The notes under the pieces: generated by a model
Seen by the model: the letters and a program-made list of their open reading frames with translations, nothing else
Databases searched by the model: none
What the model was told of the DNA's origin: nothing
DNA from: Zhongshania aliphaticivorans
GTDB lineage: Bacteria > Pseudomonadota > Gammaproteobacteria > Pseudomonadales > Spongiibacteraceae
DNA: 64,000 bases
Reading direction: 5' to 3'
Assembly: GCF_902705855.1 (NCBI RefSeq)
Contig: NZ_CACSIJ010000011.1
Span: forward strand, 1 to 64,000
Position numbers and translations under genes: made by a program
Part shown: piece by piece, positions 20,202 through 31,053 of the stretch
Layout: each line of letters begins with the position of its first letter
Position numbering within the stretch: the first letter of the stretch is position 1

Positions 20202-21176
20202 ATGTTAAAAGCACAGTACACCGAGCGCGGATCAGATCCGCAGAAATCGATTTGCGCGGTAGAATTTGACATTGCCGAGCTTGCCGAAGATGAGGCGCTG
20301 GTAGAGTTAATCGCCTCGCCGATAAATCCTTCAGACGTCCTCACCCTAACCGGTGAGTACGGCATATTGCCGCCTTTGCCCGCAATTGGTGGCAATGAAG
20401 GTGTGGGTAAGATAGTTAAGCTTGGGGGCAAGGGACCTGCGATTGGTCAAACTGTCATGTTGCCAGTTGGTATTGGTAGCTGGGCGACCCACATGGTATG
20501 TAAAACTGCGCAGCTGATTCCTGTGCCGAATGAGGCCGACGCTAAGCAGTTGGCCATGATGACCATTAACCCGCCAACTGCACTATTAATGTTGGAAGAA
20601 TTTGTTGATTTAAAACCGGGTGACTGGGTAATACAAAATGCGGCCAACTCAGGCGTAGGCAGCTACCTGATTCAATTGGCAAAAATTAAAGGATTAAAAA
20701 CCATAAACGTGGTTCGCCGCGAATCTGCCGTTGAAGGCGTGAAAGCGCTGGGTGGTGATGTGGTGTTGGTCGACGGCCCCGCACTCGCCAAAGACGTTGC
20801 CAAAATATGCGGCGACAATCTACCAAAGTTGGCAATTGACGCCATTGGTGGCGCCGCTACCGATAACGTGGGCGCCTGTCTTGCGACGGGTGGCACCTTG
20901 GTCAACTACGGTTTAATGAGTGGCGAGTCATGCCAATTGTCAGCAAAATCCCTAGTGTTTCGTGACGTCACCCTCAAAGGCTTCTGGTTGGCCCGTTGGT
21001 TCCGCACCGCCACACCTGAAAAACAAATGGCGCTATTCGGCCAAATCACCAAATACATTACTGAAGGTAAATTGAAGACAAAAATTCATGCCGAATATCC
21101 TGTGAGCGAAATTAAACAAGCGGTAGCAGCGGCGGCCGAAGGTGGCCGTGATGGAAAGATCTTAGTTGTTGCTTAA
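20202..21176 (+). CDS. MDR-superfamily NAD(P)H oxidoreductase (MECR/quinone reductase-like)
   Basis: Medium-chain dehydrogenase/reductase without the catalytic zinc ligands, most like trans-2-enoyl reductases (MECR/ETR1) and quinone oxidoreductases. The GroES-like N-terminal half has SPINPSDVLTLTGEYG (about 39-54) and GGNEGVGKIV. The Rossmann half has NAANSGVGSYLIQLAK (about 146-161) for NADPH binding, and the C-terminal GRDGKILVV is typical. The 324-residue length is normal. A good ribosome site (AAAGGAG, six bases before ATG) is present, and a terminator follows, so it is monocistronic. The divergent OhrR-like regulator and operators suggest induction by peroxides or reactive electrophiles, which is inference. 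Confidence 0.85.
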   Translation: MLKAQYTERGSDPQKSICAVEFDIAELAEDEALVELIASPINPSDVLTLTGEYGILPPLPAIGGNEGVGKIVKLGGKGPAIGQTVMLPVGIGSWATHMVCKTAQLIPVPNEADAKQLAMMTINPPTALLMLEEFVDLKPGDWVIQNAANSGVGSYLIQLAKIKGLKTINVVRRESAVEGVKALGGDVVLVDGPALAKDVAKICGDNLPKLAIDAIGGAATDNVGACLATGGTLVNYGLMSGESCQLSAKSLVFRDVTLKGFWLARWFRTATPEKQMALFGQITKYITEGKLKTKIHAEYPVSEIKQAVAAAAEGGRDGKILVVA

Positions 21177-21298: not shown

Positions 21299-21352
21299 AA
21301 TAAAAAACCCCAACTCTTTCGAGTTGAGGTTTGATACTTGGTGGAGCCGGCG
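21299..21352 (-). repeat. Distal att repeat: copy of the ssrA 3' end and terminator
   Basis: This 54-base stretch matches 30651-30704 at all but six positions. The last 25 bases (21328-21352) are identical and include TGGTGGAGCC, the complement of the tmRNA 3' acceptor end. The differences are confined to the hairpin of the terminator, whose stem is largely kept in both copies. It looks like the original chromosomal 3' end of ssrA, displaced when a mobile element entered the gene's 3' end. Sequence after 21352 no longer resembles tmRNA. Confidence 0.85.
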
Positions 21353-21562
21353 TCACTTTAATAGACATTCCAACTGATTGATATTAAAGGTTTTGTGTTT
21401 TTGTGTTTTTATTTATGCCCCATAAATGCCCCCAGTTCTGCGAGACTGAGGCGATTGTTCATTAATATGGGGGTAGGGAGGTTGATCTAGTTAGCGGGGG
21501 TGGCCTATAATTTGCGCAAGTGGATTGGGGGTTCCCGGTCGGCGTCGCAGCCTCGGTGAGTA

Positions 21563-22456
21563 TCATCGGGGCTTTTCGCTTTCTGGGCTTGGAAAAATCT
21601 TCAAGCCATAGCTTTCAAAGTCATTTCCGACAGCGTCTCGACCTCCTGCGCAGTAAAATTTCCGTTTCAGTACGTCAAATGCCCGATTTTCTTGTTCTGG
21701 TTTGAAAACGCTCAGTCCTATTGGTCGGGCGACTAGGTCAGCTAACTGCAAGCCGGACGACATGGCTTTTTTATCTGAGAACCGAACGTCAAAGGGTAGT
21801 TGCCGCGAAAGTCGATTGGCGCCGTCACAAATACGGCGAAACTCCAGCTCTAACTCGTTATCTTCCTTCCTACCGCGACATTCAACCACTACATGGGTTT
21901 GCTTTTTCTCTTGGCCTTTTTCCTGCAAAAACTCAAAGAGCGTCTCTAGGCAAAAGCCGAGTGCGATATGGTAGGGGTTGGCATTTGCATCGGCGTGGCC
22001 CTTTAGTTGACGCTTATCGATAACACAACTGATCAGAATGAAATTGCTACGCTCAATGATTTGGGTCAACTCGTCCATAAACGCAAACTTTTCTTCCTTG
22101 CTGCGGAAGATATTGAACTCCCCTTTTTCCTTTCTTATCTCGTTTTCGTGAAGCACCACTTGATCATGGCCGAAGTGATTGAATTTAAATTTTTCTAAGG
22201 CTGAAACGACTTTCTCGCTGTAGTGCCGTTTATGGAAAACGCATAGTGCCAAGACGAATAGCGGGTAATTAGGGTCGATAGTCTGCATACCGTGATCGCC
22301 GCTCTCGTCAACGTAGACAATGTACTTGCTATAGCGTGATTCCTTTATTGGGGCAGCATCTTCGCGGTCGACAACATTTTCTGTAGTCGGCTGCTCCTTA
22401 CTCGGACTAAGCTCAAGATCAAAGAGCGGTAATTGCTGTTCGTCGTTGTTAGGCAT
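21563..22456 (-). CDS. DUF3800 domain protein, last gene of the R-M operon
   Basis: A 297-residue protein. After a poorly conserved N-terminal tail (about 1-40) comes the DUF3800 opening YIVYVDESGDHG (about 45-56), with paired acidic residues, and later HVVVECRGRKEDNELELEF (about 192) and GLQLADLVARPI (about 240), where an Asp and a Glu recur. DUF3800 proteins are thought to have an RNase H-like fold, so metal-dependent nuclease activity is plausible but unproven. Its start codon overlaps the end of hsdS by eight bases, so translation is coupled to the R-M genes. Its place in a restriction operon suggests a defence or regulatory role. Confidence 0.75.
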   Translation of the reverse strand: MPNNDEQQLPLFDLELSPSKEQPTTENVVDREDAAPIKESRYSKYIVYVDESGDHGMQTIDPNYPLFVLALCVFHKRHYSEKVVSALEKFKFNHFGHDQVVLHENEIRKEKGEFNIFRSKEEKFAFMDELTQIIERSNFILISCVIDKRQLKGHADANANPYHIALGFCLETLFEFLQEKGQEKKQTHVVVECRGRKEDNELELEFRRICDGANRLSRQLPFDVRFSDKKAMSSGLQLADLVARPIGLSVFKPEQENRAFDVLKRKFYCAGGRDAVGNDFESYGLKIFPSPESEKPR

Positions 22457-24038
22457 CGCTCTTCCTGCCTTTGGTTTTCTTGGCCGGTTTGGCCGCTGCG
22501 CGCTCGGCCTTGATGCGTTCTAGCAGCGCGGCGGCGCTATTGTCGCCGCTGATGAGTTCGGGGTTGTCTTGACGCCATTGCTCGGTGAGCTCGCCTCTGA
22601 ATGCTTTGGCAAGTATGGACTGCGTGAGCTGGTTAACACGGGCTTGGGCGTTTTTGACTTGTTGCTCGACTTGGTCTGCGTAGGTGAAGAGTTGTTCTAC
22701 GCGGCGGACTATTTCGGTTTGTTCTTCGATAGGAGGTACAGGGCAGGGTGCAGAGCATAATCTGCTTTTGTTGATAATTGCAGCGTTGACTACTGCGCTA
22801 GATGTTTTATTCAGCCATGTGTGTAAGGTCTGTGCCCACATGAAAAGAAACTCTTTCTTGATTGCTGCTGTGGGTATAAGTGCATTTATTTGCTGATTGA
22901 ATGCTGACTCCTTTTCTAGTAATCCAACTTTCCCAATAGTACCGATGCAGACAATGAGAATAGATCCGGAGGGTAGAATCGGTGTTTTTTCGGCGGCTTT
23001 ATCTGTGACGTACCGCTCAGGTGCCACGATATGTCCATTTATTTTAATTTGTGATGGGGTAATGAATGGAATTTTCCCACCCCAATTTTTTTCATCTGTT
23101 GTTGGTGGGGTTTTTCCTGTAACTGATATTGATATGCTATCAAGGTTAGAGACAAACCATCCTTCTGGTGCAGATTGTATGGCTGTAAGATTGAGCTCGT
23201 CTGAATAGTTATTGGTTGGCTTTTTATATTTTTTAATATTTGAGTCAAGATTAAACGGTATACCTTTTCTATGTGCACTTTTCTTCTGCTCAGTGATCCA
23301 GCTGTTCAAGCGCTCGTTCTCGATAAATTGAATAATCGCATTTTTGTCTACGGCATTATTTTCATGGCGCCACTCCTCCGTCAATTTCCCACTCACCGCC
23401 GCAGCGAGTACCGATTGGCGGAAGCGTTTGAGAATGGTGGGGATGGCGTCGAGGCGGGCTTTTACGGTGTTGACCTGTGCCAGTAGTTCGTCGAGTTTGT
23501 CGGCGATGACTTTTTGTTCAGCTAGGGGCGGGAGTATTAGTGGTGCTTGCAAACCGTCTTTGGTGCCTAGTCGAGGCATATTTACCCCATAGCTGGCTGC
23601 ATTTACATGGGCCTGAAATGATTCTGATTTTAGCCAGTAGAATAGGTACCTATTTGATACAAAAGGTTCTGCATCTATTGGAATGATTTCTGTCGAACAA
23701 TATCCTGGGCGGTCAGCGATGATGATTTTATTTAGGTAAGGCCTGAGCTTACCGTACAGTACATCACCAGTTTTGAACTTGTTCTTGGAGCTTTTAAATT
23801 TTCTTGCCTCTACAGTTACGCGTTTCAGTAACCGTGAGCTATCTTTTTCGACGTCTTCTAATTCAAGAATCCAGTCGCCTTGGGACGCATCGCTTAGTTC
23901 AGCTTTGGTTGTTTTGCCATATTTCGTAACGGCGCCTAGCTGGGTGTATACCCAAGAGGTCGGTAGCTCTAGATTCCCGCCTTCGCAGGAATGACTGCTT
24001 TGGAGTGCTGAGTTTATATTGCTGTCGGTTTTACTCAT
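22449..24038 (-). CDS. hsdS: Type I restriction-modification specificity subunit
   Basis: DNA-recognition subunit that directs the HsdM methylase and HsdR translocase to a bipartite target. It has two target-recognition domains (about 25-175 and about 280-430), each followed by the conserved helical spacer: LPPLAEQKVIADKLDELL (about 178-195) with SGKLTEEWR, and VPPIEEQTEIVRRVEQLF (about 440) with RGELTEQWR. The lysine-rich tail KPAKKTKGRK is unusual in charge. Translation overlaps hsdM (TAATG). Codons about 15-23 encode HSCEGGN from a palindromic repeat inserted near the 5' end. At 529 residues it is somewhat longer than typical HsdS. The recognition sequence cannot be read from the protein. 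Confidence 0.93.
   Translation of the reverse strand: MSKTDSNINSALQSSHSCEGGNLELPTSWVYTQLGAVTKYGKTTKAELSDASQGDWILELEDVEKDSSRLLKRVTVEARKFKSSKNKFKTGDVLYGKLRPYLNKIIIADRPGYCSTEIIPIDAEPFVSNRYLFYWLKSESFQAHVNAASYGVNMPRLGTKDGLQAPLILPPLAEQKVIADKLDELLAQVNTVKARLDAIPTILKRFRQSVLAAAVSGKLTEEWRHENNAVDKNAIIQFIENERLNSWITEQKKSAHRKGIPFNLDSNIKKYKKPTNNYSDELNLTAIQSAPEGWFVSNLDSISISVTGKTPPTTDEKNWGGKIPFITPSQIKINGHIVAPERYVTDKAAEKTPILPSGSILIVCIGTIGKVGLLEKESAFNQQINALIPTAAIKKEFLFMWAQTLHTWLNKTSSAVVNAAIINKSRLCSAPCPVPPIEEQTEIVRRVEQLFTYADQVEQQVKNAQARVNQLTQSILAKAFRGELTEQWRQDNPELISGDNSAAALLERIKAERAAAKPAKKTKGRKSDA
23971..23996. repeat. Palindromic repeat element inside the hsdS coding sequence
   Basis: ATTCCCGCCTTCGCAGGAAT (23973-23992) is an imperfect 8-4-8 hairpin of the ATTCCCGC...GCGGGAAT type commonly dispersed between genes in proteobacteria. 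Here it is translated as part of the HsdS N-terminus (HSCEGGN on the minus strand). It is the only copy noticed in the window. Confidence 0.55.
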
Positions 24039-25654
24039 TAGGCCGACTCACTCCCAACACCTAATACATCCTGCAAAAGCTGCTTCTGAACATCTGCCTC
24101 GTCCCCAGCCCCCAAGGCCCGCATCAAGCCATCTATCTCTCTCAGTGATTCGGTCAATTCGGACATGGCTTCTGCTGCCAGTACTTCTGGTTCTGGCAAG
24201 TTGGCGGCATCGACGCTGTCTTTGTCTTTTAGCCAGCTAATGTCTAGCGAGTCGCCTTTGGTGTCGCGTACCCAGTCGCGGTTGAATACCCGCCAGCGGC
24301 TTTTGGCTAGGTCGTCGTTACTGCCAGCTTCTTCGGTAGTGTCGGCCTCTTTGGCGTTGAAGCTCCATTCACCCTCACTGCGTTTGGAGGTGCCGTCGGC
24401 TTTTTTGCCAAACACGTTTTCAAAAGGCGTCAGGTGTTCTTCAGTAAATGGTGTGCGTTTGCCAAAGCTGGGCATATTGGTGCGCAGGTCGTAAACCCAT
24501 ACGTTAGTGGTGCAGTTTTCGTCTTGCAGTTTGTCTTTGGGGTGGCCTTTAGTAAAAAACAGTACGTTGGTTTTAACACCTTGGGCGTAAAAAATACCAG
24601 TGGGCAGGCGCAGTATGGTGTGCAGATTGCACTTGTTCATTAAGTCGCGGCGCACCTCGTTGCCCACGCCTGCTTCAAATAAGACATTGTCTGGCAAGAC
24701 CACGGCGGCGCGGCCACCGGGTTTTAAATTGCGATAAATATGCTGCAAGAAGGCCAGTTGTTTGTTGCTGGTTTTATAGGTGAGGTCGTCGCGGGTGATG
24801 CTGGCATCGCCGCCCTTGGAGGTGCCAAAGGGCGGGTTGGCTAAAATAATGTCGGCCTTTGCCAGATTGGCGCCGACCATACCAAGTGCGTTGCCAAGGT
24901 GAACCACGCCTTCGTCGTCGCCTTCCATGCCGTGTAGCAGGCAGTTCATTAAGGCCATGCGGCGGGTGCTGGGCACTAGCTCTACACCGAGAAAGGCTTT
25001 GTTGCGTTGAAACTTTTGATCTTTTGCTGGCAGGTTAAATAGGTCGTCGGTGTGCTGTTTAATATAGGCGTCGGCGGCAATTAAAAAACCGGCGGTTCCC
25101 GCCGCGGGGTCTTGCACGATTTCACCGGCTTGGGGCTGAATGCAGCGCACCATGCTATTAATAAGGGCTCGCGGGGTGAAGTATTGCCCTGCGCCAGATT
25201 TGGTTTCGCTGGCGTTTTTTTCGAGCAGGCCTTCGTATAAATCCCCCAAGCCATCTTGCTGGGCGCTATACCAGTCGATTTGGTCTAGGGCTTTTACCAG
25301 CTGCTCTAGGTGACGCGGCTCGCGCAGTCGGGTTTGGGCGTCGGCATATACGGCAGAAATTAATAGGTCGTTGTGAACCTGCACGTTGTTGGCGTCTTTG
25401 CCGGAAGACAGCGCCAACAGTATGCGTTTGTAGTCGTCGAGTAAATTTAAACCCGACTTGCTGTTGAGATCGGTCCAGCGGCAGCCTTCTGGCAGAATGT
25501 GAGTTTTGAGCAAGTCAGACTCGGTGTTCTCGTGCACCATTTTCATAAACAGCAGCATCACCAGCTCGGTGACGTAGTCGCTGTAGTTAATGCCGTCGTC
25601 GCGGAGTACGTCGCAGAGATTCCAGAGTTTTTGAACAATGTCGTTGTTGGTCAT
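24038..25654 (-). CDS. hsdM: Type I restriction-modification DNA methyltransferase subunit
   Basis: SAM-dependent N6-adenine methylase of the type I complex (2M:1S, plus HsdR for cleavage). The N-terminal helical domain (about 1-140, MTNNDIVQKLWNLCDVLRDD) is typical. The catalytic domain has GQYFTPRALINSMV (about 155), DPAAGTAGFLIAA (SAM-binding motif I, about 182) and ILANPPFGTSKGG with the NPPF motif of N6-adenine methylases (about 275). Length 538. The upstream fic gene ends within its start (ATGA overlap) and hsdS starts at its stop, so fic, hsdM and hsdS are translationally coupled. Confidence 0.95.
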   Translation of the reverse strand: MTNNDIVQKLWNLCDVLRDDGINYSDYVTELVMLLFMKMVHENTESDLLKTHILPEGCRWTDLNSKSGLNLLDDYKRILLALSSGKDANNVQVHNDLLISAVYADAQTRLREPRHLEQLVKALDQIDWYSAQQDGLGDLYEGLLEKNASETKSGAGQYFTPRALINSMVRCIQPQAGEIVQDPAAGTAGFLIAADAYIKQHTDDLFNLPAKDQKFQRNKAFLGVELVPSTRRMALMNCLLHGMEGDDEGVVHLGNALGMVGANLAKADIILANPPFGTSKGGDASITRDDLTYKTSNKQLAFLQHIYRNLKPGGRAAVVLPDNVLFEAGVGNEVRRDLMNKCNLHTILRLPTGIFYAQGVKTNVLFFTKGHPKDKLQDENCTTNVWVYDLRTNMPSFGKRTPFTEEHLTPFENVFGKKADGTSKRSEGEWSFNAKEADTTEEAGSNDDLAKSRWRVFNRDWVRDTKGDSLDISWLKDKDSVDAANLPEPEVLAAEAMSELTESLREIDGLMRALGAGDEADVQKQLLQDVLGVGSESA

Positions 25655-26763
25655 GCTGGGGGGTAATCCTTAATGGTGTTGCTGTCCTGACTCAAAAGCT
25701 GAACCAGCTTGGGATGTATAAATAATTTTTCTTTGCCAACTTGGCGCTCTTCTAACACGCCAATCTCGCAGAGTTGCTTAAGGTATACCGAAGCGGTTTG
25801 CCGCTTGGCAATATTGGCGTCGACTAAATTAGTTATTCGGCAATAGGGTTGTTGGAAGATGACCTGGATCAGCTCGTGGCTATAGGCTTTGGGGAGCTGA
25901 CGTTGCACATGGTCGCCAGTAATGATCATGAGCTGGCGGGTCGCGGCAATCTTAGCGGTTGTCCACTGCGCCGTGTCTGTTACTGCGGCCAGTATATATA
26001 AAATCCACTCCTGCCAGTTTTGCTGGCTGCTTACACCGAGTAGTAGGCGGTAGTAGTCGGCCTTGTGTTCCACAATATAGCGGCTTAGGTAGAGTATAGG
26101 CAGGCTGAGGAGTTCTTCTTGAATAAGGTAAAGAATGTTCAATACGCGGCCGGTGCGACCATTGCCGTCGGTAAAGGGGTGAATGGCTTCAAACTGATAA
26201 TGGGCAATGGCCATTTTAATGAGCGGGTCTAGGTCGTCGTCGCTATAAAGAAATTTCTCCCAGTTGCTAAGCAGTGTATTGAGCTGGGCTTCGCCCTCTG
26301 GCGGTGTGTAAATCACTTGGCCACTAGCGGGATTCATGAGTTTGGTGCCGGGTACTTTGCGCACCTGCATGTCTAGCGATTTAATGGTGCTGCATATATC
26401 TATGGCGGTGTTGGCGGTGAGAGGGCGTTCGCGGAGTTTGGCGTAGCCGCTAGCCAATGCCGTGCGATAACGCAGCGCTTCGCGGGTTGCTGGGTCGGCG
26501 CTGCTGTCTTCGTCGGCGTACTGAAAGAGCTTGTCGGTGGTGGTGACAATGTTTTCGATCTCAGACGAGCCTTTGGCTTCTAATAGCGGTAGCAGATTGA
26601 TCAGCAAACCTTGGTTGGGCAGCAGCTCGCCCGCTTGTTTTAGCTCGGCCAAGGCCGCGCGTGCTGGAATGCAGGCCTTGAGTATGCCGAGGTTTTCTAC
26701 CGCTTCTCGCGGTGGTGGCAGTGGCGGTAGGTTGTTGTAGGGTCGGTCGGCTTGCCATGTCAT
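25651..26763 (-). CDS. Fic family protein (AMPylase-type) with C-terminal winged helix
   Basis: Contains the complete Fic motif HPFTDGNGRTGR (about residues 195-206 counted from the chosen start), including the catalytic His and phosphate-binding GNGR. SSEIEN near 65 resembles the autoinhibitory (S/T)xxxE(G/N) helix of class II Fic proteins. The C-terminal part (about 295-370; RITNLVDANIAKRQTASVYL, LCEIGVLEE) looks like a winged helix-turn-helix. The sequence closely follows the structurally studied Shewanella SoFic type, which begins MEWQ; on that basis ATG 26763 (MTWQADRPYNNL) is chosen, although upstream in-frame ATGs at 26790, 26814 and 26820 exist and ribosome sites are poor. It sits inside the R-M operon and overlaps hsdM by ATGA, so it may modify or regulate the system. 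The AMPylation target is unknown. Confidence 0.88.
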   Translation of the reverse strand: MTWQADRPYNNLPPLPPPREAVENLGILKACIPARAALAELKQAGELLPNQGLLINLLPLLEAKGSSEIENIVTTTDKLFQYADEDSSADPATREALRYRTALASGYAKLRERPLTANTAIDICSTIKSLDMQVRKVPGTKLMNPASGQVIYTPPEGEAQLNTLLSNWEKFLYSDDDLDPLIKMAIAHYQFEAIHPFTDGNGRTGRVLNILYLIQEELLSLPILYLSRYIVEHKADYYRLLLGVSSQQNWQEWILYILAAVTDTAQWTTAKIAATRQLMIITGDHVQRQLPKAYSHELIQVIFQQPYCRITNLVDANIAKRQTASVYLKQLCEIGVLEERQVGKEKLFIHPKLVQLLSQDSNTIKDYPPA

Positions 26764-26832
26764 GTTTAAATAATCCGGTTTTATCGACATTTGACCAGCA
26801 TAGGTTGATGGCATCGACATGACAAGCTGATA

Positions 26833-26899
26833 TGTATAAAAAGTCGCAAAAAATGTACACGTTCTGTCGACGTGCATAAAAAGTTGCGTTTTTTATGCA
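26833..26899. promoter_or_regulatory. Tandem and inverted repeats between hsdR and fic
   Basis: TGTATAAAAAGTCGC (26833-26847) and TGCATAAAAAGTTGC (26873-26887) are near-identical and exactly 40 bases apart. The second forms a perfect inverted repeat with TTTTTATGCA (26890-26899) around a seven-base loop. These AT-rich repeats precede fic and may be an operator or an internal promoter region for fic-hsdM-hsdS. Confidence 0.5.
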
Positions 26900-26918
26900 T
26901 ATGCCGTGTTGCTGTGGA

Positions 26919-29900
26919 TTAAGACGCCGCCCACAGCGCGTCGTTAATGGCGTCGAGTACGGTATCGAGCTGATTATCGAGCACTTTGTCGAATTGCTTG
27001 GCGCCGCCTTCAAAGGCGGGAATTTGGTTAATGGTGTCGCGGTCGATAATAACTTCGTGGGTGAGTTGTTTGCCAAGCCGAGTTAGCCATTTGCGCTGAT
27101 TGGCTGTCCAGTTGTGCTGGCTAAGAATTTTTTGCACCGCGTTTTGTACCCGCTGCTCAAAAGGGATCATGGCCTCGCCGATGGCGGCGCGGCGAATGTG
27201 GCCGATGATACTGGCGGCAATGTCTTGGTTGGTTTGCTGCCGCCATGCCGATTGTAGGCTGGGTTCGGTATAGCCGTTATTGTCTAAGAGCAGGCGAACG
27301 TCTTTGAGTTGCTGGCGAGTCAGGTCGCGGGGCCGGTTAACCACCGCGCTGAGGGCGGCGGAGTCGTTGAGCTGCTGGCGAACAAATTGATTGAAGCTGT
27401 CGAGGTAGTCTTGGGGTTTGTCGTAAACCCCGTAGTTTTGCTCCCGCACTCGTAGCTCGTCTTCGTGCTCCGATATTACTGGCATGCGCTCGCTGCCCAT
27501 AATCGCTTTTACTTGGGCGAGCTGGTCTATAAAGCCGCGGTGCTCATTGAGAAAGGCGGCGGCTTGACGGGGGCCTAGAGTGTGCAGGTGTTGGTGGAGT
27601 TTGGCGGGTTCAACACCCCAGCTGTATTGCAGCTCATCTAGCTTCTGGCGCAGCTGCGGATTGTTCTCGGCTTTCTTTTCGGCCTTGCGCAGCACCTGCA
27701 TCACCTTTTGGCCGAGCTGGCTCAAAACGGTGTCGGCGTGACTACTGTCGTGGGCTTCGCCGGGGGCATTCAGGCTTTGCTCTAGTTTGTCGGGGTCGGT
27801 CAGCTCGTCGCAGAGCTGTTCAAGAGTGATGTTGGGCTTGCGCACTAGCGGCTTCATGGTGGACACGTCTTGCAGTGCCGCGTAAATGCCAACGGGGTCG
27901 TATATGCGGAATACGGTTTTGCCAATGTCGTCGCAGCGGCGAGTGGCGCGGCCCACCATTTGTTCATAAAGAATGCGTGAGCGCACTCGGCGCATAAACA
28001 CCAAGTGGGCGATCTTGGGCACATCGATGCCGGTGGTGAGCAAATCGACGGTTATCGCGATATTGGGGTAGCGCTCGTTTTTGTAGCGGCGAATGAGCTG
28101 GTCGACTTTGTCGCTTTGGCCGGTAATTTTGGCGACCGCGGCTTGCGGGTAGTCGCCGTTGTAAACATCAACAAAGGCCTCATCCAACAGCCGTTTGACC
28201 ATGTCGGCATGTAAGTCGGTGGCGCAGAAGATTAGGGTTTTTTCATCGCCAAAGGGGTCTAGCTCTTGCACCAGCTGTTGGCAGATGACGTTGTTGAAAT
28301 TCTCGCTGATCACGCCGCGATTAAAGGCGTCGACCTCAAATCCTAGGTCGTCTTCTAATTCAGAGGCTTCAACTTCGCCGGTGGCGGTGTTGATTGCGCT
28401 GACGGTGTCGCCTTTTTCAAACTTAATGCCGTTCTGGCTGAGTAAGGTTTCGTAGCGAATCGGCGGTTCGTGGTCGATTAGCCAGTCGTCGGCGACGGCT
28501 TCGCGGTAGGAGTAGGTGTAAACCGGTTTGCCGAAAATGTCGCTGGTGTGTTTGGCGGGGGTGGCCGTGAGTCCGACCTTGATAGCATCGAAGTAATCTA
28601 ATACGCGGCGGTAGCTCGACAGGTATTGGCTGGTGTCGCGCAGGGCGAGTTCACCTTCGGTCATCTCTTGGTCGAGGGTATAGCCGCGATGGGCTTCGTC
28701 AATAATGATGCAGTCGAACTGGTCAACCGGTGGTGGGGTGTCGGACATAAATATCCGTTTCACCATCGCTTGCACCGTAGCTACTTGAATGCGGGTCTCG
28801 GCCTCGGCAGCCATGTCACCGAGTTCTTTTATATTGTAGATTTTACTTAGGGGCTGGTTCTGTTCCAGTGGCGCTTCATTGAACGCGTCGATAGCTTGCT
28901 GACCAAGGGCGCTGCGGTCGACTAAGAACAGAATACGTTTGAAGCGCTCCGCTTTGAGAAAACGGTACATCAAACCAATGATAGTGCGGGTTTTACCGGT
29001 GCCGGTTGCCATCGCCAGCAGGCATTCACGCTGGTCGCGCTCGAGGGCAGATTCAACGGCGACAATGGCTTTTTCTTGGTAGTCGCGCAGGCGCAGGTAG
29101 GTGAAGCCTTCGCCCTGTAATATTTGCTGGGCTTTTTCTTTATCTCTGGCGAGTAAGTCTAATAGGCCTAAGGGGCTGTGGAAGCTTTGCAGGGCGCGGC
29201 TAAGATTGCTGGTTTCTCGTACATCCCGAAACCATGTGCCAGACTGTTCTTTCAGTTGTTTGATGTATTCGCGGCCATTGCAGGAGTACACAAAGGGAAT
29301 TTGATAATGGCCGTCGTTCTCGTCTGGCCACGCGATTGTGCGGCCCGCGAGTTGCCATGCTGGCGTTACCGTGGCGTCGGGCTTAAAGCCCTTGGCGTAG
29401 CGCTCGGCTTGGGGAATCATGCCTGCGACGTTTTTGTTTTCTCGTTTAGCTTCAACAACGGCGATGGGCGTCAGCCCAGCGAATAGCATGTAGTCAGCGG
29501 GGCCAGTCTGGGTTGGCCATTCGGCAATGGCTTTGTTCTTGCCTTTCTCGGGGCGGGCGCCAGATTTGTAGGTCAGTTCTTGGGTGTCTGCCTCCCAGCC
29601 AGCATCGATCAGCAGCTGGTCAATAAACACGCGGGTGAGCTCTTCATCAAGCACCAGTGTTTTACTGGCCGATTGGGTTTTGTTTAGCACGGACTGGCGC
29701 TGCTTTTCTATTGGCGCGGCGTTGTTGGTGGTGAGCTGTTGTTTTAGTGCGGTGATCTGCGCTTCAAACTTGGTTCTCTGCGCAGCAAGCGCCTGTTCCG
29801 CCGCCTGGGCCTGCTGTTTAAACTGCTGGGCTTCTTCGTCCATTAGTTCAGCGAGCTGCTGGTATTCGGTCTTCTCCAGCTCTAGCAGGGCATCGCGTTG

Positions 29901-30431
29901 CTGTTCGACCTCCTGCTGGCCAGCTTTGCTACTTAGTTCTGCATTGAGCTGATCGATGTGTACTTGCAGCTCACGGAGCTTCTGGCTAGGGTCCTGCGGC
30001 GCTATAAAGGCGCCAGCTTTAAATGTGCTGCCTTGCTTGCCAAAGGATTTGTGATACCAAATAGCGAGCTGCCGAGCGACCTTTAAGCCCTGCATCGCTT
30101 CCCTGTGCTGGGTTTGAAATTGGTGGGTGGCCTTATTGCCCTCGATGCGTAGTACATGGAAGAGGTTGCGAACATCCGGCTCTAGGCTAATGTCGCGATT
30201 CAAGCGGTAGAGCAGGTCGGCTTGACTGGTAGCGTCGTCAAAGTCGATACCGGCGCGCAGCGACACGTCTTGAGCAAGGGCCTCGCCAAACTGGCGTAGT
30301 TTAATCAGAGTGGTGTTGGGGTCTGCATAAAAGGCATTTTCAGCAGTGGAGGTAAGCTGAATCAGGATAGGGTCGTGTTCGCTAAGAAAGGCGAAGTTGC
30401 TGCTCTGTGGCGCGTCTGCTGCTATTGCCAT
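26919..30431 (-). CDS. hsdR: Type I restriction enzyme, ATP-dependent translocase/endonuclease subunit
   Basis: Motor and nuclease subunit of the type I system. The 1170 residues show an N-terminal DUF4145-like region (about 1-150), a Gln/Glu-rich coiled coil (about 150-240), then a PD-(D/E)xK-type nuclease patch: GPADYMLFAGLTPIAVVEAK (about 315-335). The SF2 helicase core has ATGTGKTRTIIGLMYRFL (Walker A, about 480), DEAHRGYTLDQE (about 580), LTATPAKHTSDIFG and VGRATRRCDDIGK. The C-terminal helical domain that contacts HsdM/HsdS follows. The layout is of the EcoEI/EcoR124-like group. GAGGGAA lies just ahead of the ATG. It is the promoter-proximal gene of hsdR-fic-hsdM-hsdS-DUF3800. Confidence 0.94.
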   Translation of the reverse strand: MAIAADAPQSSNFAFLSEHDPILIQLTSTAENAFYADPNTTLIKLRQFGEALAQDVSLRAGIDFDDATSQADLLYRLNRDISLEPDVRNLFHVLRIEGNKATHQFQTQHREAMQGLKVARQLAIWYHKSFGKQGSTFKAGAFIAPQDPSQKLRELQVHIDQLNAELSSKAGQQEVEQQRDALLELEKTEYQQLAELMDEEAQQFKQQAQAAEQALAAQRTKFEAQITALKQQLTTNNAAPIEKQRQSVLNKTQSASKTLVLDEELTRVFIDQLLIDAGWEADTQELTYKSGARPEKGKNKAIAEWPTQTGPADYMLFAGLTPIAVVEAKRENKNVAGMIPQAERYAKGFKPDATVTPAWQLAGRTIAWPDENDGHYQIPFVYSCNGREYIKQLKEQSGTWFRDVRETSNLSRALQSFHSPLGLLDLLARDKEKAQQILQGEGFTYLRLRDYQEKAIVAVESALERDQRECLLAMATGTGKTRTIIGLMYRFLKAERFKRILFLVDRSALGQQAIDAFNEAPLEQNQPLSKIYNIKELGDMAAEAETRIQVATVQAMVKRIFMSDTPPPVDQFDCIIIDEAHRGYTLDQEMTEGELALRDTSQYLSSYRRVLDYFDAIKVGLTATPAKHTSDIFGKPVYTYSYREAVADDWLIDHEPPIRYETLLSQNGIKFEKGDTVSAINTATGEVEASELEDDLGFEVDAFNRGVISENFNNVICQQLVQELDPFGDEKTLIFCATDLHADMVKRLLDEAFVDVYNGDYPQAAVAKITGQSDKVDQLIRRYKNERYPNIAITVDLLTTGIDVPKIAHLVFMRRVRSRILYEQMVGRATRRCDDIGKTVFRIYDPVGIYAALQDVSTMKPLVRKPNITLEQLCDELTDPDKLEQSLNAPGEAHDSSHADTVLSQLGQKVMQVLRKAEKKAENNPQLRQKLDELQYSWGVEPAKLHQHLHTLGPRQAAAFLNEHRGFIDQLAQVKAIMGSERMPVISEHEDELRVREQNYGVYDKPQDYLDSFNQFVRQQLNDSAALSAVVNRPRDLTRQQLKDVRLLLDNNGYTEPSLQSAWRQQTNQDIAASIIGHIRRAAIGEAMIPFEQRVQNAVQKILSQHNWTANQRKWLTRLGKQLTHEVIIDRDTINQIPAFEGGAKQFDKVLDNQLDTVLDAINDALWAAS

Positions 30432-30650
30432 TGTTCCCTCAGTACGGGTGTTTATGCTTACTTCCGTGTTCTGGCCTCGACTATAGGCGAATCCCTTTAC
30501 TGGAACAAATATTTACGAAACCTTGTGAGCACTGTACTGACATCTTAGTGACATGGTAGTCGGTAGTAAGGTTTTTGCGATCTGTGCTTTTTGCAAAACA
30601 AGAAATTTTGAGGCAAGTTACTTTTGGCATATTTTTATTTTTAAAAGGGC

Positions 30651-30704
30651 AATAAAAAACCCCAATCCTTTCAGATTGGGGTTTGATACTTGGTGGAGCC
30701 GGCG
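30651..30704 (-). repeat. Proximal att repeat: current ssrA 3' end and terminator
   Basis: Partner of 21299-21352. It contains the 3' acceptor end of the intact tmRNA (30691-30704) and a terminator hairpin with CCCCAATCC pairing to AGATTGGGG, followed by a T run on the minus strand (30653-30658). Insertion therefore preserved both tmRNA and its terminator. Confidence 0.85.
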
Positions 30705-31053
30705 GGAATTGAACCCGCGTCCGTCAGTCCGCCACTCAGGGCTCTTCACATGCTTGGTTTCCGTCAATTAATTTAGCCGCAAACAGCCCGACGGGCAGGA
30801 CGTGATTGGCGATTCTGATTAGGTGTTTCGCGGCTCGGTCTCAGACATACCTTACTCGCTAGCTTGTTCTATATGACAGTCGCGTCCCATTTACAAGCAT
30901 CTGGTAGCGACCGCTAACCGGGGTTTAAGCGGCTAGAGCGTAGTTGTCGTCGTTGGCAACTATTAGGTTTACAGCTTTGGATTTACGTGATTGGCTGTCA
31001 TCACGGCATGCACCTCAGAGCGTTGTAACCGGCGTCGAATCCAAATCGGCCCC
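30691..31053 (-). ncRNA. ssrA: Transfer-messenger RNA (tmRNA)
   Basis: Rescues stalled ribosomes with SmpB and tags the nascent peptide for proteolysis. On the minus strand the 5' end reads GGGGCCGATTTGGATTCGAC and the 3' end has the T-arm GGTTCAATTCCCGCC and GGCTCCACCA. The tag frame at 30925-30957 encodes ANDDNYALAA and a stop. TACACT at 31063-31068 is a well-placed -10 about ten bases upstream. The gene is complete at 363 nt. Its 3' end is the attachment site of the adjacent island, and its partner smpB lies at 36.1 kb. Confidence 0.95.

Follow-up and report, generated by a model that had tools for sequence, protein, structure and literature searches.

An integrase-less genomic island lies between ssrA and an alcohol dehydrogenase (ADH) gene in the window, the 64,000-nucleotide stretch of the Zhongshania aliphaticivorans genome that was analyzed here. 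We consider it likely that this island is what remains of a known kind of mobile element, the P4-type ssrA island, after stripping, and that it is probably immobile. A stripped remnant was one of the readings offered in an earlier note on this DNA, and comparison with relatives argues for it, as the integrase side is replaced by a host-type terminator and a spacer.

The window genome (G000) was compared with its Zhongshania relatives (G001–G017) in a genome set with one genome per species. DNA downstream of ssrA was taken for 16 of these 17 genus mates and for three family members; G003, with no tmRNA match above the cut-off, was left out. Contig ends cut some of the stretches short (G002, G014 and G016), the ORF listing covers 15 of the 19 loci, and the ADH gene falls inside the compared stretches of three relatives only (G006, G016 and G017). 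The features of the window are as follows.

20202–21176, plus strand: flanking zinc-type ADH; high identity to G016 stops near 20690, inside this gene
21299–21338, minus strand: right terminator copy, the displaced host ssrA terminator; same stem in G016, G017 and G005
21339–21363, minus strand: right attachment site TATTAAAGTGACGCCGGCTCCACCA; eight relatives are without the T after GGC (GAC in G017)
21416–21433, minus strand (minus-strand reading): right-end arm motifs, GGGGGCA and a degraded GGGGCA
21563–22456, minus strand: DUF3800 protein, following hsdS
22449–24038, minus strand: HsdS, specificity subunit with two Methylase_S stretches
24038–25654, minus strand: HsdM, type I N6 methylase with an NPPF motif
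25651–26877, minus strand: SoFic-like Fic protein with the motif HPFTDGNGRTGR
26919–30431, minus strand: HsdR, EcoEI-type restriction subunit of 1170 residues with DEAH, GTGKT and EAK motifs, without stops
30470–30646, minus strand: 177-bp spacer ahead of hsdR, without a GGGGGCA arm motif
30651–30690, minus strand: left terminator copy, of the host class also seen in G006 and G016
30691–30704, minus strand: last 14 bases of ssrA, the left attachment core (from tmRNA placement)
30691–31053, minus strand: ssrA (tmRNA), located by ARAGORN and Rfam

Direct repeats at the 3′ end of ssrA

The earlier note had described two 54-base direct repeats with six mismatches and identical last 25 bases, and these were confirmed. 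Positions 21299–21352 and 30651–30704, at an offset of 9352, are identical at 48 of 54 bases, including all of the last 25. Elsewhere in the window, the 54-mer matches at no more than 29/54 bases, and 200 shuffled 54-mers reach 33/54 at best. A 24-base repeat probe with up to 3 mismatches finds just these two places in the 3,949,550-base genome. Base composition is of no help, since the GC content is 0.511 in the island and 0.516 and 0.495 on the two flanks.

The repeats had been described as the tmRNA 3′ end with its terminator, which holds in a division of 14 and 40 bases: only the last 14 bases of each copy (21339–21352 and 30691–30704) belong to the tmRNA, and the rest is terminator. All six mismatches fall in the terminator part, and each of the two copies folds into a 12-bp hairpin. 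The proposal of an ssrA-site island is supported, as the boundary lies at the 3′ end of ssrA with a distal copy, the arrangement expected of a P4-type island. A plain attL/attR pair from one integration is not supported. After integration by the P4-type family, as in G017, the host terminator is found on the far side alone, whereas the island of the window has host-class terminators on both sides and none of the family's left arm motifs at its left end. The 54-base repeat thus combines a 14-base attachment core with host terminator sequence in two alleles, and a single integration by this family would not put host-type terminators on both sides.

Cargo of the island

The five minus-strand genes between the repeats encode HsdR, SoFic, HsdM, HsdS and DUF3800, all without stops. 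No recombinase was found among them, as had been reported. The patterns that we take to be the catalytic motifs of HsdR, HsdM and SoFic were all found in the window proteins, and the type I restriction system (hsdR, hsdM and hsdS) appears complete and intact. The locus resembles EcoEI-type type I loci in having all three subunits; it differs in having a SoFic gene between hsdR and hsdM and a DUF3800 gene after hsdS. A literature search found no paper joining type I restriction, Fic and DUF3800. Within the operon, the fic gene is exchanged as a cassette: its SoFic product is 94% identical in G005 and 77% in G015, and the Fic of G016, G017, G011 and G001 is only about 40% identical to that of the window.

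Right end and its arm motifs

TGCCCC occurs at 21416 and 21427, and the suggestion that this pair is an old integrase arm site is supported by motifs conserved at −64 and −76 of the core in the right sites of relatives. Nine genomes share a right-end layout of GGGGGCA at −76 and −64 followed by TTAAAGTGACGCCGGC-CCACCAA, with at most 2 differences. With one mismatch allowed, both arm motifs are present in six of the eight relatives and the −64 motif only in G008 and G001; one G is lost from the second motif of the window. The pair is best read as an arm site of the P4-type integrase family, and the right end of the window is a true attachment-site arm, with motifs and a core that the eight relatives share.

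The right end is accompanied by an integrase at an ssrA core in five of the nine genomes (G002, G005, G011, G012 and G017), in G002 on another contig than the integrase. In the other four (the window, G001, G008 and G016), it occurs without an integrase orthologue of at least 76% identity. Near ssrA, integrases of other types do occur in G001, G008 and G016, and the window and G016 are not independent cases; we therefore say only that integrase-less copies are not rare.

The wobble T of the tmRNA

In the acceptor stem of the tmRNA, a G-U wobble forms the third base pair; its U corresponds to the T that follows CGGC close to the 3′ end. This T is missing from the right site in all eight relatives and kept in that of the window (17 genus genomes searched, G003 excluded). 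Excision of CP4-57 in Escherichia coli and of CP4So in Shewanella oneidensis is described as deleting the wobble U and abolishing tmRNA function (PMC5148205, PMC10107115). Table 1 of the latter report has a deletion at the wobble T in 6/6 rows with a P4 integrase (in four of them of the single T) and in 1/4 with a P2 integrase. Deletion at the wobble T is usual, although perhaps not defining, for P4-type ssrA islands; whether excision in Zhongshania would delete it depends on the position of strand crossing. In G008, a T-less right site (G008:C1:283675, locus L096) lies 33.6 kb from ssrA; the host-class terminator behind it shares its stem with the left copy of G016, so that the ssrA array of this genome spans at least 33 kb.

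Outside the genus, 3 of 373 genomes gave a total of 4 matches to the T-less site, all of them with 2 mismatches and without arm motifs, and the control for this search returned 9 matches in 8 genomes. As the controls matched more often (9 versus 4), the matches outside the genus are taken as chance.

The T of the window may have arisen through conversion by ssrA or one chance insertion. With the T-less right sites of the relatives, excision may kill the tmRNA and thereby bind the host to the island. The window island could then be a disarmed tmRNA switch, in which loss of the integrase and recovery of the T by ssrA conversion turned an island that was costly to lose into a stable defence locus spreading by homologous recombination. 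We put this forward as a tentative idea that is more likely wrong than right.

Integrase-bearing counterparts

In G017, the closest relative to carry the island, ssrA is followed in one row by an integrase, HsdR, Fic, HsdM, HsdS, DUF3800, the right end, a terminator and ADH. Identities to the window are 95% for HsdR, 92% for HsdM, 93% for DUF3800 and 98% for ADH; the Fic is a different protein (40%). The integrase lies 165 bp downstream of ssrA, with about 4.2 kb in all ahead of HsdR. It contains Arm-DNA-bind_3, Phage_int_M and Phage_integrase, the domain set of P4-type integrases.

Orthologues of at least 76% identity are present in six of the 18 genus genomes (G017, G011, G002, G005, G012 and G004), in G004 away from ssrA, and weaker or stronger matches to the G017 integrase in 15 of the 18. 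The window genome has no match of any kind. In five genomes (G017, G002, G005, G011 and G012), the integrase sits at an ssrA core: the distance to its aligned coding start is 165 bp, measured from ssrA in G017, G002 and G012 and from a downstream core copy in G005 (12,366 minus 12,201), and in G011 an ISL3-type transposase gene lies ahead of it. In both G017 and G011, the operon has the place of cargo, after the integrase and ahead of the right end. Relatives that bear the integrase conform to P4-type ssrA islands.

Five PF00589 stretches were identified in the window genome, all on other contigs, and none matches the G017 integrase. A recombinase-like pair on the 4.2-kb contig C5 is of a different type. 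This contig (4163 bases, locus L066) encodes a 405-residue integrase-family protein and a 783-residue protein in a row, behind a transposase-like fragment. Mobilization by a helper integrase elsewhere, which had been offered as an alternative, thus found no support: a P4-type helper is not present in the window genome, and the evidence on recent movement points to homologous recombination (see below). XerD over the cut-off is absent in nine of the 18 Zhongshania genomes, including that of the window (listed as 100% complete). The same nine have no XerC match at 1e-40, and the other nine have both XerC and XerD; loss of XerCD in part of the genus is possible.

Left end and spacer

P4-type islands bring their own terminator next to ssrA, and where an integrase sits at the core (five genomes), exact GGGGGCA motifs, 2 or 3 in number, come with it. 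No GGGGGCA was found at the left end of the window, which instead has a host-class terminator, as in G006, and then the 177-bp spacer. The spacer is present in three of 18 genus genomes (the window, G016 and G005), and the spacer together with the start of hsdR is common to all three. In G016, a 10.4-kb element with its own integrase, taken as filamentous-phage-like from its gene order judged by eye, is located between ssrA and the spacer. In G005, two integrase-bearing elements occupy this position, and a P4-type island lies directly before the spacer-hsdR unit. The G005 operon is decayed, with two 39-residue pieces of HsdR, SoFic at 94% and 31 residues of HsdM.

In the G016 assembly (contigs C12 and C27, loci L052 and L064), one ssrA 3′ end marks both the end of the contig with ssrA and the start of the contig with the island. 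The assembly therefore breaks at the attachment site, which may be an effect of repeats or of mixed states. In G009 (locus L045), some 10.5 kb separate ssrA from a partial second tmRNA copy downstream, behind which come distant HsdR-like and HsdS-like genes; AbiEii-type and deaminase-type genes lie in between.

Probable spread between species

From the ssrA end to +10,000, the identity of the window to G016 is 87–100% in all 250-bp bins that have 200 or more aligned bases (82–100% with short bins counted). Most of the fic gene and of the variable parts of hsdS stay unaligned. Identity is 74–83% beyond +10,000, 71–83% upstream of ssrA, and 98% in ssrA itself. The high-identity tract passes the right core and stops in the middle of ADH. 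As a site-specific insertion would end at the core, the position of this stop speaks for homologous recombination, and the recent spread looks like homologous recombination rather than integrase action. The near half of the window ADH is 88–91% identical to that of the sister species G017. The window copy thus looks native and G016 looks like the receiver, a direction drawn from single pairs of genomes.

Origin of the island

We propose that a P4-type (CP4-57-like) island with a type I operon integrated between ssrA and ADH in an ancestor of the window species and G017, since G017 keeps the whole series from ssrA and the integrase through the restriction genes to the right end and ADH. The integrase half would then have been lost by recombination with an allele that already had the order ssrA, terminator, spacer and hsdR, to judge from two alleles; G016 and G005 show this order once the elements inserted there are set aside. 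The resulting block may have been exchanged between species by homologous recombination through ssrA and ADH, to which the identity tract of G016 points. It would have been retained because the restriction operon is useful, as the intact reading frames suggest. The intermediate, an integrase half and spacer joined to one intact hsdR, was found in none of the genomes compared. The T in the right site of the window also speaks against this proposal, as a dead remnant need not have it, although it may come from one chance insertion. Without an integrase or left arm motifs, and with one right arm damaged, the window island is probably no longer able to excise alone.

No empty ssrA-ADH site was found among G006, G016 and G017, the relatives whose stretches reach ADH. 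Relatives with the same genes and no att repeat, which the earlier note had held to speak against its reading, do occur, if only at a distance: the five genes lie at ssrA in G015 as well, where the right end is absent. In this distant species, a core, a similar terminator and hsdR follow in order without a window-type right end, and the link between ssrA and hsdR may therefore be older than the P4-type island.

An integrase-less element with usable sites at both ends, moved in cis by the integrase of an adjacent P4-type island, is an unlikely alternative to such a remnant. As far as sequence can tell, the window has flanking sites and neither an integrase nor a transfer gene. Both cores are identical over 25 bases, a P4-type island lies right before the spacer-hsdR unit in G005 (and a different integrase-bearing element in G016), and the start of this unit is common to three species; cis-mobilization has also been proposed for ssrA islands of Dehalococcoides (PMC3146451). 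However, a P4-type helper integrase was not found in the window genome, the left end has no arm motifs, one right arm is short of a G, and the tract shared with G016 extends beyond the right core and into ADH, a stretch that site-specific insertion would leave behind.

Still less probable is a resident operon, in which the restriction genes have long stood beside ssrA and the right repeat is left over from a separate P4-type island between operon and ADH. It would account for the order ssrA, terminator, spacer and hsdR in the window (and, with inserted elements discounted, in G016 and G005) and for the restriction block after a core and similar terminator in G015. The junction from DUF3800 to the right end, however, is continuous and common to the window, G017 and G016, and in G017 and G011 the operon stands between integrase and right end, as cargo. 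Finally, chance or purely terminator-type similarity with no history of integration can hardly explain the repeats: this terminator class does recur in the genus and supplies 40 of the 54 bases, but the right copy has 14 tmRNA bases and conserved arm motifs in the nine-genome alignment, and a third genome match of the repeat probe is absent.

Comparison with known systems and implications

CP4-57 of E. coli and CP4So of S. oneidensis target the ssrA 3′ end, as in the window, and they match Zhongshania in the integrase-bearing sister species and the T-less right site of relatives; CP4So also carries restriction-modification genes, like the window island (PMC10107115, PMC5148205). The window copy differs from both in having no integrase, no left arm motifs and a right site that keeps the T; if its two sites recombined, this T would not be lost. 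Three P4-type features are thus absent from the window (an integrase by ssrA, arms at both ends and a T-less right site), which makes the window copy a derivative and not a working member.

In Dehalococcoides, 31 ssrA islands have been reported, with 15 said to be without an integration module (PMC3146451). As described there, these resemble the Zhongshania islands in being tandem at the ssrA site, with about half lacking a recombinase and possibly cis-mobilizable. They differ in the recombinase family, serine rather than tyrosine, and in cargo.

A literature search for Zhongshania genomic islands found nothing relevant. Among 72,556 plasmid records, megablast gave 2 matches, to pieces of hsdM only (10% and 1% of the query). 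An hsdR close to that of the window is present in 21 of 244 genomes of other genera. An ssrA-type 3′ end lies within 1.5 kb before hsdR at four of these 21 loci (L071, L072, L074 and L081, by eye for the last), and a whole tmRNA gene ahead of it at two; other near-matches of the 11-base probe in L071, L072, L074, L076 and L085, without ssrA context, were dropped from this count. At L081, which belongs to a genome from another family of the order (G155), the close hsdR relative is about 1.25 kb from the ssrA-like 3′ end by eye.

The ssrA site of this one genus presents a row of stages, from an integrase-bearing island through tandem arrays and integrase-less copies to a decayed operon. The occurrence of a T-less ssrA site, described in E. 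coli, Shewanella and others, now takes in another family. Once the integrase is gone, the defence operon seems to travel by recombination in the flanking genes.
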